Assembly: GCF_007004735.1 (NCBI RefSeq)
Contig: NZ_ML660182.1
Span: 552,130-616,129 of the forward strand
Length of the DNA: 64,000 bases
Direction: 5' to 3'
DNA from: Salinigranum halophilum
GTDB taxonomy: Archaea > Halobacteriota > Halobacteria > Halobacteriales > Haloferacaceae
Shown: positions 37,518 through 40,339 of the stretch, piece by piece
Layout of the letters: the number at the start of each line of letters is the position of its first letter
How positions within the stretch are numbered: the stretch's first letter is position 1
The notes under the pieces: model-generated
Told to the model about the DNA's origin: nothing
Database searches by the model: none
The model's input: only the letters and a program-made list of their open reading frames with translations
Position numbers and translations under genes: made by a program

Positions 37518-37694
37518 GGGGTCGTGGCCAAGCCCGGCATGGCGACTGACTCCAGAGGCTACCGCCCGGTGACGACACTCCAGACTGATATACCGAGCGA
37601 CCGACTGATCATCGGTCGTGTTGACGACCCTCTGGAGGACCGAGGCGCGACCGGAGATATCAGTCGATCGGGGGTTCAAATCCCTCCGACCCCA
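37518..37694 (+). tRNA. tRNA-Trp (CCA anticodon) with a 103-base intron
   Basis: The acceptor arms GGGGTCG (37518-37524) and CGACCCC (37687-37693) pair fully, with discriminator A37694. The D arm is GGCCAAGCCCGGCATGG. The anticodon stem is ACTGA (37545-37549) with TCAGT (37660-37664). The anticodon CCA is at 37552-37554. The T arm is GGGGG TTCAAAT CCCTC (37670-37686). The loop is interrupted between positions 37 and 38 by an intron at about 37556-37658. CCA is not encoded. This arrangement is the canonical haloarchaeal tRNA-Trp gene. Its 3' end is copied 140 bases downstream. Confidence 0.95.
37556..37658 (+). ncRNA. tRNA-Trp intron, likely box C/D guide RNA
   Basis: The intron is 103 bases, matching the haloarchaeal tRNA-Trp intron. 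In Haloferax that intron contains a box C/D RNA guiding 2'-O-methylation of C34 and U39 of its own pre-tRNA. Candidate elements here are GTGACGA (37569-37575, C box), CTGA (37585-37588, D' box), TTGACGA (37621-37627, C' box), and a degenerate D box in TCTGGA near 37631. ACTCCAGA just before D' repeats the anticodon loop sequence. The exact ends follow from the bulge-helix-bulge rule and could shift by a base. Confidence 0.8.
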
Positions 37695-37715
37695 CTTCCT
37701 GTACGACATCACACG

Positions 37716-37741
37716 GCGAGCACCGCGTCGCGTGTGCTCGC
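37716..37741. repeat. 8-bp hairpin just downstream of tRNA-Trp
   Basis: GCGAGCAC (37716-37723) and GTGCTCGC (37734-37741) form a perfect stem with a 10-base G+C-rich loop, 22 bases after the tRNA. It may help 3'-end formation of the tRNA transcript or be part of the integration-site structure. Confidence 0.45.
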
Positions 37742-37767
37742 GACCCGTTGTGAGCTGTGACGTCGAC

Positions 37768-37827
37768 GGAGGGGGATTTGAACCACGCGGACGAGCGAAG
37801 CGACGTCCGCGTGGTTCAAATCCCTCC
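37768..37827. repeat. Long hairpin derived from a tRNA 3' end
   Basis: GGAGGGGGATTTGAACCACG with continuing CGGACG (37768-37793) pairs with 37804-37827 (CGTCCGCGTGGTTCAAATCC then CTCC), leaving loop AGCGAAGCGA. The arms are about 24 bases, with two extra G in the left arm. The right arm includes a T-arm-like GGTTCAAATCCCTCC. The structure gives rise to spurious proteins of the 'GPEGFEP' kind on the minus strand. Confidence 0.8.
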
Positions 37828-37835
37828 GGCCCCAC
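37813..37835 (+). repeat. Partial copy of the tRNA-Trp 3' end (candidate att site)
   Basis: Bases 37813-37835 match 37673-37695 of tRNA-Trp at 22 of 23 positions (the T-arm, acceptor 3' strand, discriminator and next base). tRNA 3' ends are standard attachment sites for tyrosine integrases, and a duplicated end marks one boundary of an integration. A decayed integrase fragment lies 0.7 kb further on. Confidence 0.6.
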
Positions 37836-38021
37836 CATCACTTTTCACCAGCATCAGGAACCCTCTCGCCAGATTACGGCAGATTCTTGATTGTTTCAAC
37901 CACCAATCTACATCATCCGATGAGGGATTCGTCCCTGTGCCGTACTCGGAATGTCAGCGGGAAGGTATGAACCCCGAGGTTGAATATTTAGTTTCGTCAA
38001 CAGGGTAATCAATCACTACTC

Positions 38022-38483
38022 TCACCAGCGCCCTGTTGATGACGCTTCCTCAGTGAGATAGCCCATTATCAAAAATAGCGCACCAACGACTGGTTCAATT
38101 GGTAGTAGAAATCCAGTAATAAACATCCAGTAGAACGACACTACACCCAACAAATCACTTTTATCATACATCAATATCGCACCAAGAGTCAAATCAAGCA
38201 CGGTTCCAACATCAATCATTGAGTAAACAAAGTTAGAGAAGTTCGCGGTCAATATCGGGGTGACAGATACGAGTTCTTTAGAAATTAGCCCCATTGGTGA
38301 AAGCCCGACTGATAAAATCAGCCCGTTCCCCAGTGCAACCGTGGTTAGGAGTCGTTTGGCGGACTTGTCCCGAAATGCTCCTACGATTCCCATAAAGACA
38401 AAATACAAAACGAATATTGCGATACCTCCGCCAACTGCGTTTAGAAATGCTGTTGGGTTCGGATTCACAGAAAAATTGCTCAA
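38022..38483 (-). CDS. A+T-rich orphan membrane protein
   Basis: A 153-residue protein I do not recognise, with about four hydrophobic helices (for example GGGIAIFVLYFVFMGIVGAF and VVSFYWMFITGFLLPIEPVV). Composition is unlike neighbours: low G+C, many A/T-ending codons, few acidic residues. The start is a TTG at 38483 by the longest frame; an internal ATG would lose the first helix. The 9-base inverted repeat TCAACAGGG (37997-38005) / CCCTGTTGA (38031-38039) brackets its stop codon and may be its terminator. It is probably cargo of the element that integrated at tRNA-Trp. Confidence 0.6.
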   Translation of the reverse strand: MSNFSVNPNPTAFLNAVGGGIAIFVLYFVFMGIVGAFRDKSAKRLLTTVALGNGLILSVGLSPMGLISKELVSVTPILTANFSNFVYSMIDVGTVLDLTLGAILMYDKSDLLGVVSFYWMFITGFLLPIEPVVGALFLIMGYLTEEASSTGRW

Positions 38484-38541: not shown

Positions 38542-38820
38542 CTGTCCCGTCGCTTCCGTTTCTCCCCCCTCCTTCGCGGCGTCGCAGTGCGCGTCAAGCA
38601 CGTCTACGCCGACGTTCGCCCGTTCCACGAGGTGTGCTTTCGGGGAGTTCTGATTGAGCGCGTAGGTGATGGCCGCCCGGCGGAGCAGATGTGGACTCAC
38701 GGACGACGGACAGCCGGACGCCTTCCGCATCTCCAAGTAAATACACGGACGAGTGACCCCGTACAGGTTCTTCCGGTACGTGTTCGACGTGACCCGCTGT
38801 TGGTGCGCGGCGAAGAGAGC
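38542..38820 (-). pseudogene. Tyrosine integrase C-terminal fragment, inactive
   Basis: Reading down the minus strand from 38820, the frame gives AHQQRVTSNTYRKNLYGVTR, then CPSSVSPHLLRRAAITYALN and VERANVGVDVLDAHCDAAKE. This is the C-terminal catalytic end of haloarchaeal XerC/D-like integrases, with the HxxRR motif (SPHLLRR). The catalytic Tyr expected in 'LDxHYD' is Cys here (codon at 38584-38586). A TAG stop at 38821-38823 cuts off the upstream part, the stretch between TRPC and the CPSS segment is shorter than usual, and downstream the frame runs on into unrelated sequence. The gene is therefore broken at several points. Confidence 0.75.
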
Positions 38821-38960
38821 CTATCGCCCGTTTCACGACCCGAACGGCCCCGTTGAGGAGCCGACTCATGACTCGCACGCGACCGAGCGCGACCCCGCAC
38901 CCCCTCCGACGGCCGGCAGGGTCACCGTGTCGTCCTGCTCCGCGGCGTTAGCAGGTTGCT

Positions 38961-38992: not shown

Positions 38993-40339
38993 ATGACCCG
39001 GTCCCGACTCCCCTCTTCTCGGCCCTCCCGTCGGCGGTTCCTCGCGGCGGTCGGAAGCACCGCAGTCGCAGGGCTCCTCGCCGGCTGTGGGGACCAGCGC
39101 GGAAGCCAGCAAGCGCAGTCAACCCCGGCAACGACGACCGAATCCACGCCGACGGCGACGGCGACGCCGACACCGAACGGCCTCGCCGGAACGTACTTCG
39201 TCGACCCCGTGAACGGCGACGACGAGTTCGCCGGGAACAGTCCAGAGACGGCCTTCGCCAGCCTCCAGCCGCTGACCACCAACGGTCGCGTCACTCTGCG
39301 GCCGGGAGACGTCATCAAGCTCCGGGCGACGGCACCCATCGTCATCGAGGACAACGTCGACTTCTACCTCGTGAAGGGGACGCGCGAGAACCCCATCGTC
39401 ATCGAACCGTACGGCGACGGCCGGCCGGTCATCGACGCGAGCGAGGTCGGCGGCTCGGCCATCCGCATGGAGGGCGCACAGTACATGACGCTCCGCGGCT
39501 TCGAACTCGAGAACGCCGGGAACGACGGTATCCAGGTCCCGGGGGCGGCGAACGGCAATCAGCAGGCCATGGGCTGTGTCTTCGAGGACCTCGAGATTCA
39601 CCACTACGGACAGGGTGAGAGCACTGAGGGGAACGGTATCGGCTTCTACCGCGACTCGTACGACCACGTCGTTCGCGACGTCGTCTGCCACCACGGGTCG
39701 GTCGACGACAACTCCGACGGCTTCTACATCGGCGGGCAGAACCGCCGGTTCAGCGGTGGCCACCGGTTCGTGCGCTGCGTCGCGTACCGCAACGCCGACG
39801 ACGGCTTCGACTTCTTCCGCTGTGACCCCGAGCGTCCGAGCACACTCGTCGACTGCGTCGCCTTCGGCAACGGGCGCGACGGTGAGGGGGCGACCGGCGA
39901 CGGCAACGGCTTCAAGATGGGTGGCGGGTGGCGGACCGGCGGTAACCACGTCGTCCGCGCGCGGGCGTTCGACAACGACGCCATCGGCTTCGACTGCAAC
40001 GGGGCGAGCGCCGCGAACACCTTCGACAACTGCACCGCATACGGCAACGGCACCTACGGGTTCGAGTTCACCGGCGACACGGACCCGGACCACGTCGTCC
40101 GCAACTGTATCGCGTTCGAGAACAGTGAGGGGCCGGCGAACCTCCTCTACAACGCCCGGTCGGAGGCGAACACCTGGGACCTCGAGATAGACGACCCGCG
40201 GTTCGCGAGCGTCGTCCCCGACGACTCGCGGTTCCTCCATCTCACTGCCGGCTCACCCTGTATCGACGCCGGTGTCGACGTCGGCGTGTCGTTCGTCGGG
40301 GCGGCTCCGGACCTCGGGGCCTTCGAGTTCGAGTCCTAA
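38993..40339 (+). CDS. Secreted right-handed beta-helix lipoprotein (pectate-lyase-like)
   Basis: A 448-residue protein with a Tat signal (SRRRFLAAVG) and lipobox LLAGC giving an acylated Cys32, so it is exported folded and anchored to the outer face of the membrane. A Thr/Pro-rich linker (residues 43-62) follows. The body is a parallel beta-helix with repeated short strands and Asn/Gly turns (for example CVAYRNADDGFDFF, RAFDNDAIGFDCNG, CTAYGNGTYGFEF) and starts with GTYFVDPVNGDDEFAGNSPE, as in family 9-type pectate lyases. It may bind or cleave an acidic polysaccharide; no catalytic residues are assigned. Its stop overlaps the convergent GTP cyclohydrolase stop by four bases. Confidence 0.85.
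   Translation: MTRSRLPSSRPSRRRFLAAVGSTAVAGLLAGCGDQRGSQQAQSTPATTTESTPTATATPTPNGLAGTYFVDPVNGDDEFAGNSPETAFASLQPLTTNGRVTLRPGDVIKLRATAPIVIEDNVDFYLVKGTRENPIVIEPYGDGRPVIDASEVGGSAIRMEGAQYMTLRGFELENAGNDGIQVPGAANGNQQAMGCVFEDLEIHHYGQGESTEGNGIGFYRDSYDHVVRDVVCHHGSVDDNSDGFYIGGQNRRFSGGHRFVRCVAYRNADDGFDFFRCDPERPSTLVDCVAFGNGRDGEGATGDGNGFKMGGGWRTGGNHVVRARAFDNDAIGFDCNGASAANTFDNCTAYGNGTYGFEFTGDTDPDHVVRNCIAFENSEGPANLLYNARSEANTWDLEIDDPRFASVVPDDSRFLHLTAGSPCIDAGVDVGVSFVGAAPDLGAFEFES

Follow-up and report, generated by a model that had tools for sequence, protein, structure and literature searches.

Tandem gene-less hairpin units behind haloarchaeal tRNA genes: candidate miniature cassettes integrated at tRNA ends

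Among the systems described so far, the RtT repeat of Escherichia coli tyrT/V (Rfam RF00391) comes closest to the sequences reported here: in both, gene-poor tandem units lie directly behind a tRNA, finish with a repeat of its 3' end and contain an inverted copy. At tyrT/V of E. coli K-12 we found three units of 178 bp. In each of them the terminal 19 nt of tRNA-Tyr recur without mismatch at the end of the unit, and an inverted copy pairs to close an extended hairpin; the E. coli sequence L392 gave four Rfam RtT matches, the fourth of them between the two tRNA genes. RtT units differ from those of haloarchaea in that their copy is acceptor-sided and includes CCA, the unit is longer, and the annotation there lists a small RNA and a short protein, a comparison that covers one locus and one isotype. 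RF00391 itself had no match, either at the gathering score or at low threshold, in the 64,000-nt stretch of Salinigranum halophilum DNA analysed here (hereafter the window) or in three further sequences (L366, L383 and L390), in all of which the tRNA alone gave a match at the gathering score.

Archaeal integrative elements that target tRNA genes (tyrosine recombinase elements, SNJ2-, pNOB8- or Xer-related) have in common with the units a site at the tRNA 3' end, a copy at the far end, an intact near tRNA and occurrence in the same arrays, whereas the units have neither an integrase of their own nor any other gene and are two to three orders of magnitude below the usual size. A T-arm hairpin is present in units and absent at the ends of the integrative elements examined (those of genomes G003 and G030, described below). 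Integron cassettes share with the units a short tandem form and exact gain or loss, and possibly also change beside a fixed docking site; their attC sites have the same general shape, namely a hairpin at one end in which an internal loop stays unpaired and one arm is a base longer. The haloarchaeal units, by contrast, have no genes or integron integrase, are spread over many tRNA docking sites and have arms that match the local tRNA. No IntI-type integron integrase was found in the window, and the integrase of the G003 element scored 23 bits against a TIGR02249 cut-off of 265. We do not regard the units as members of the integrons; integron cassettes are, by analogy, what they may work like. 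PATEs and MITEs of haloarchaea are, like the units, short, gene-less and hairpin-bearing, and are set apart from them by description: they are defined by IS605-type or other transposon ends, and PATEs, as far as the accessible part of the source goes, are not tied to tRNA genes (PMC3119063). In the accessible parts of the literature searched (PMC3119063, PMC8371274, PMC9897764, PMC11078007, PMC12306157 and PMC2841640) we found no prior description of the units; subscription papers lay mostly outside this search, and an earlier description is possible.

The unit behind tRNA-Trp and its neighbouring integrase element

The window corresponds to positions 552,130 to 616,129 of contig NZ_ML660182.1 (assembly GCF_007004735.1, forward strand). 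It contains an intron-bearing tRNA-Trp gene at 37518-37694 on the + strand (Rfam RF00005, 45.8 bits); ARAGORN, at the settings used, reported no tRNA in the window, whereas RF00005 finds this gene, and the miss is probably due to the intron. The sequence GGTTCAAATCCCTCCGACCCCAC at 37673-37695 occurs a second time, as a direct repeat on the + strand at 37813-37835, with 22 of 23 bases the same; within the tRNA, the copied block from T-loop to last base covers 37674-37694 (+). The whole unit, or cassette, is 140 bp long, starting with the base that follows the tRNA and finishing where the copy does, at +140 (37695-37834, +). These bounds are a little wider than the 37716-37835 of an earlier, sequence-only reading, and the unit is called gene-less on grounds of its length. 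It begins with a T-rich start, followed by hairpin H1 (core CGAGCACCGCGTCGCGTGTGCTCG, 37717-37740, +), a spacer and hairpin H2 (37773-37824, +), the right arm of which continues into the tRNA 3'-end copy. H2 has perfect arms of 21 nt: the left, made up of an inverted T-arm and an inner stem, lies at 37773-37793 and is followed by the cap, the right lies at 37804-37824, and on folding the stem extends beyond both. The fold of 37690-37850 was 8 sd below dinucleotide-preserving shuffles, and the unit folded as DNA gave a z of -8.2, with none of 200 shuffles equal in either case. The tandem hairpins and copied tRNA end that had been noticed here from the letters are confirmed by this repeat, these arms and this fold. 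MicroRNA families matched H2 in Rfam at low threshold, with scores far under the gathering scores, and we dismiss these matches as chance resemblance between hairpins.

Directly behind the window copy begins a decayed integrative element akin to that of the congener G003 (left end at 37837-38052, no strand assigned): in this AT-rich stretch, local alignment with positions 1790-2012 of L218 scored 48, against a shuffled maximum of 14.5. A tyrosine recombinase remnant corresponding to residues 221-318 of the G003 protein is found at 38587-38832 on the - strand (tblastn, 66% identity, E 3e-35). No intact integrase was found in the window, and the PF00589 matches of this genome are all elsewhere. 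In G003 itself, tRNA-Trp and the unit are separated by a 2-kb element with a gene for a 338-aa tyrosine recombinase, and in G030 the same place is taken by a 5.4-kb element (L233, G030:C17:232000-241500) with a Rep protein (DUF1424) and an integrase-like protein, for which the Phage_integrase score is under the cut-off and a SAM-like domain over it. As integrase elements adjoin the unit copies, the copies serve such elements as sites. The reading of the locus as a structured att site thus stands in part: the copy behaves as an attachment site, given the decayed element behind the window copy and the G003 element between tRNA and unit. As for the suggested look for integrase genes beside intact copies, the G003 array has one and the G030 array has one for an integrase-like protein; none is intact in the window, and few integrase matches adjoin tRNA arrays in the three genomes searched and compared by eye, most arrays having no adjoining integrase.

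Two further observations concern the surroundings. Just past the decayed element, 38993-40339 (+) encodes a 448-aa protein with right-handed beta-helix matches. Elsewhere in this genome (L227, G000:C2:685500-691500), the end of tRNA-Gly(gcc) is copied at 26 of 26 bases 2.1 kb downstream, with an integrase match in between, and this locus is probably an intact small integrative element.

Recurrence and anatomy of the units

The T-arm palindrome GATTTGAACC-N4..34-GGTTCAAATC was found in 46 of 170 family genomes, belonging to 16 of 28 genera, and its backwards-read control in none, so the hairpin is not due to chance. A palindrome scan with one genome per species gave at least 120 stretches; of those listed, 70 were haloarchaeal (two of them, L157 and L173, under a vague taxonomic label) and 50 came from other taxa. 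Among these listed matches, ARAGORN found a same-strand tRNA within 350 nt upstream of 65 of the 70 haloarchaeal hairpins as against 3 of the 50 others, which were mostly unlinked to tRNAs; one of the five haloarchaeal exceptions (L118) is at a contig edge. H1 behaves in the same way. Its 24-mer, with two bases left free, had 29 matches in 21 of 167 family genomes (control 0), 28 of them no more than 400 nt 3' of a same-strand tRNA and the 29th (L376) between two tRNA-Thr end copies. The tRNAs concerned are of seven types, Val(gac), Ser(tga), Ser(gga), Thr(cgt), Trp, Asp and His, and H1 starts about +20 to +27 from the tRNA end or the preceding copy; at 8 of the 28 tRNA-linked loci there is no tRNA-end copy that passes the test. 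The sequence-only reading had suggested looking for the hairpin next to other tRNAs, where it is indeed found at many isotypes, and had named its occurrence at many non-tRNA loci as the outcome that would count against it, which failed to appear for either hairpin (for the T-arm palindrome, among the matches listed). Unit interiors are also related across isotypes, 16 of 6800 pairs scoring at least 25 where the shuffled maximum was 11.5 (3400 pairs). Of five T-arm hairpins in viral contigs four were inspected, and none had the haloarchaeal tRNA arrangement; H1 had no match in viral contigs, nor did the unit have a blastn match among plasmids and phages.

Several matches outside the haloarchaea deserve mention in their own right. 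A Nanoarchaeia bin with a GC content of 52% (L105, 5950-6200) has a full hairpin unit behind tRNA-Asn, possibly by inter-phylum transfer or through a binning error. One Armatimonadetes bin (L067, L070, L089 and further CAIUHP contigs) repeatedly carries, near its contig ends and without a tRNA, a palindrome of 37 nt whose arms resemble a T-arm; it is a different repeat family. Several long palindromes in a Saprospiraceae genome (L081, L082, L136, L178) share these ten-base arms, again without a tRNA.

Sets drawn by means of the hairpin are biased, and we therefore turn for frequencies to counts drawn by tRNA, which are independent of it. With a copy defined as the last 15 nt of the tRNA with at most 3 mismatches within 320 nt, 12 of the 46 tRNA genes read in this genome have a copy (two of them weak, with 3 mismatches, and one tRNA-Asp first meeting its own tandem neighbour), against 13 of 1262 control trials with the ends of other tRNAs. 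Copies were found at 29 of 50 and 21 of 50 tRNA genes in two Haloferax genomes, tandem tRNA genes included, and at 11 of 29 tRNA-Trp genes that had been selected solely by their tRNA. In the less biased set, 16 of 24 copies have an inverted T-arm beside them that passes a shuffle test (p up to 0.02). With units at between a quarter and over half of the tRNA genes in the three genomes counted, the 3' flanks of tRNA genes are hot spots of change.

The units measure approximately 85-165 bp and stand singly or in tandem, head to tail, behind tRNA genes of many isotypes. Among 189 sequences consisting of a tRNA and its downstream flank, a hairpin-enriched set, a copy with no more than 2 mismatches in 15 was present in 113, representing 15 of 19 amino-acid types, while the ends of random other tRNAs gave 0. 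Identity is 0.90 at the discriminator base and 0.53 at the next base on the 3' side; at the other edge it is 0.80 at the first base 5' of G53 and 0.50 at the second. Selection of the sequences contributes to the identity inside the block and not to its edges. With sharp edges at both ends, the copy reaches from the T-loop through to the tRNA's final base. The general plan is that of the window unit: a T-rich stretch, H1, H2 (inverted T-arm, structured cap, direct T-arm) and the tRNA 3'-end copy. Of 145 units, 123 were non-redundant; 106 of these contained two or more hairpin domains, fold z was below -2 in 80%, and the first 8 nt contained 49% T as compared with 18% overall. The strict T-arm hairpin is present in 91 of 154 non-redundant units and absent in 63; in 25 of these 91 one arm is a base longer than the other, the right arm in 17 and the left in 8. 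That the left arm follows the local tRNA is suggested by single cases at Lys, His and Glu; a simple score for this differed little (5.6 vs 4.8 of 8). Separately, a second form of unit was seen at tRNA-Ala(ggc), tRNA-Ala(cgc) and tRNA-Gly(ccc) of G072 and G073, in which the arms are formed by the acceptor end (TGGACTCGCCG .. CGGCGAGTCCA) and not by the T-arm. The original sighting is sound, and what it belongs to is a widespread, under-described class of units for which the att reading is partly supported.

Unit differences between relatives and how they may arise

Comparison of two Haloferax genomes yielded 49 tRNA ortholog pairs, of which 24 were colinear from the tRNA end, 6 differed by one unit, 13 broke elsewhere and 6 had no alignable flank. 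The six exact one-unit differences, all located at the last base of the tRNA, are at His (142 bp), Glu-ctc (120 bp), Gly-gcc (136 bp), Ser-cga (134 bp), Leu-tag (94 bp) and Ala-ggc (131 bp); they are unpolarised by a tree and can each be a gain or a loss. In these same six of the 49 pairs the relative has an exact empty site. Whole units also distinguish the tRNA-Phe arrays of Haloferax, which read tRNA-alpha-beta in G073, and tRNA-beta at the first and tRNA-alpha-gamma at the second tRNA-Phe of G085. Across arrays, we counted 34 non-trivial pairs that differ in the first position and share the next unit (5 tRNA types), as against one that differs in the second, pairs that are non-independent and likewise unpolarised. 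An apparent swap of order in the tRNA-Ser(cga) arrays was dropped, as a C1-like unit is also found after C2 and loss of the first C1 suffices. The sequence-only reading was right that a single integration duplication is not enough to explain the locus. Its alternative, a fossil of repeated integration, agrees with tandem units that differ precisely between related species, whereas the word fossil undersells units that are frequent and variable among related species.

Insertion at the tRNA end by site-specific recombination is the simplest account of the exact first-position differences, the sharp-edged copied block and the presence of one module at many tRNAs. We thus interpret the units as miniature non-autonomous cassettes integrated site-specifically at tRNA ends, where we infer a tyrosine recombinase acting in trans, and assign this interpretation a probability of roughly 0.55. 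The covarying inner stem and the open internal loop of H2, both described below, also speak for it. Against it count the many arrays without an adjoining integrase, the 13 ortholog pairs that break elsewhere and the 6 with no alignable flank, the 63 units that have no strict T-arm hairpin, the 8 H1 loci where no copy passes, and the lack of matches on plasmids, phages and viral contigs. A new unit would recombine site-specifically, through its own T-arm/3'-end copy, with the tRNA, which would stay intact while older units are pushed outward, and the tyrosine recombinase might be provided by integrative elements or be a chromosomal enzyme of the Xer type. H2 may offer the recombination core as a folded strand or, alternatively, as paired inverted core sites. 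As to the change of isotype, our guess is that the local tRNA end would be copied during insertion or the arms corrected later. The changes in the arrays, taken by themselves, could stem from homologous recombination between the repeated ends. A more far-reaching proposal, which we consider doubtful, is an integron-like system with tRNA genes as docking sites, in which gene-less cassettes would be captured at T-arms via a folded single-stranded hairpin, the arms would be copied from or matched to the local tRNA, and one family would move among isotypes; E. coli tyrT/RtT would then be an independent or a remnant case.

The units might instead be trailer RNAs similar to RtT, co-transcribed with the tRNA, removed in 3' processing and kept for an RNA function, with arrays that change by homologous recombination. 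In favour of this, tyrT/V of E. coli is built on the same plan and carries the annotated small RNA RttR. Loops of the C-GNA-G type are very stable in DNA. In the units such caps lie on the tRNA-sense strand, GCGNAGC occurring 86 times against 5 for its reverse complement and ACGNAGT 30 times against 4 (a window-wide scan for C-GNA-G hairpins at other settings, a weak measure of background, gave 6, none of them the unit's own). Covariation is also seen in the inner stem of H2: among eleven type-A hairpins, each 46 nt long, 11 cells were changed on both sides compared with 4.0 in shuffles (0 of 500), the ten outer pairs being set by the search pattern and thus uninformative. Strand-specific caps and a covarying stem are also expected from selection on an RNA. 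However, the number and kind of units vary between close relatives, 34 of the 46 tRNA genes of this genome have no unit, and a hairpin RNA needs no exact copy of the tRNA end, so that we judge a trailer RNA to be unlikely.

Slightly less likely still, in our estimation, is a passive origin without mobility: the tRNA-end repeat would date from an early integration, units would since have been made and lost through slippage and unequal recombination between these short direct repeats, and template switching would keep the palindrome arms alike. Identical neighbouring units, as at tRNA-Ser in L035 and Gly(gcc) in G073, are what such a process would give, and template switching could also have inverted the interior of H2 at tRNA-Ser(tga), which differs in orientation between two Haloferax genomes (L323 and L297) with the arms as breakpoints. 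It leaves unexplained, though, why one H1 module stands at seven tRNA types in many genera and why second-position differences are so scarce (34 vs 1). Furthermore, correction of the arms should close the conserved internal loop just inside them, yet this loop stays open, its third pair being formed in 13 of 91 hairpins where shuffles gave 23 to 53. An IS200/IS605-type (HUH) transposase acting in trans might move the units as single strands to tRNA ends, the route proposed for the PATEs of Haloquadratum. Such transposition would suit the two subterminal hairpins of each unit and the many palindrome-bearing non-autonomous elements that the accessible part of PMC3119063 describes in haloarchaea; the same text describes PATEs without target duplication, whereas the units have a tRNA-end copy, and we think this route very improbable. 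A plain fossil of a single integration with a coincidental hairpin, suggested by the decayed integrase element that abuts the copy, is contradicted by the palindrome in 46 of 170 family genomes against a control of 0, by the H1 data and by the fold z of -8, and can hardly be correct.

With whole cassettes gained or lost exactly at the tRNA end, the units have the look of very small mobile elements, widespread and so far little recognised, and the long-known, isolated tyrT repeats of E. coli are placed in a wider class. If mobile, they would be among the smallest site-specific mobile elements, would constitute a ladder of spare sites for every integrase that targets tRNA ends, and would provide a chance to test how a recombination site tracks its target sequence. 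Finally, in all 15 Haloferax genomes searched (L238-L267) a second full tRNA-Phe gene lies some kb behind the first, both of them carrying units, as if an element with a whole tRNA as its att site had entered there.
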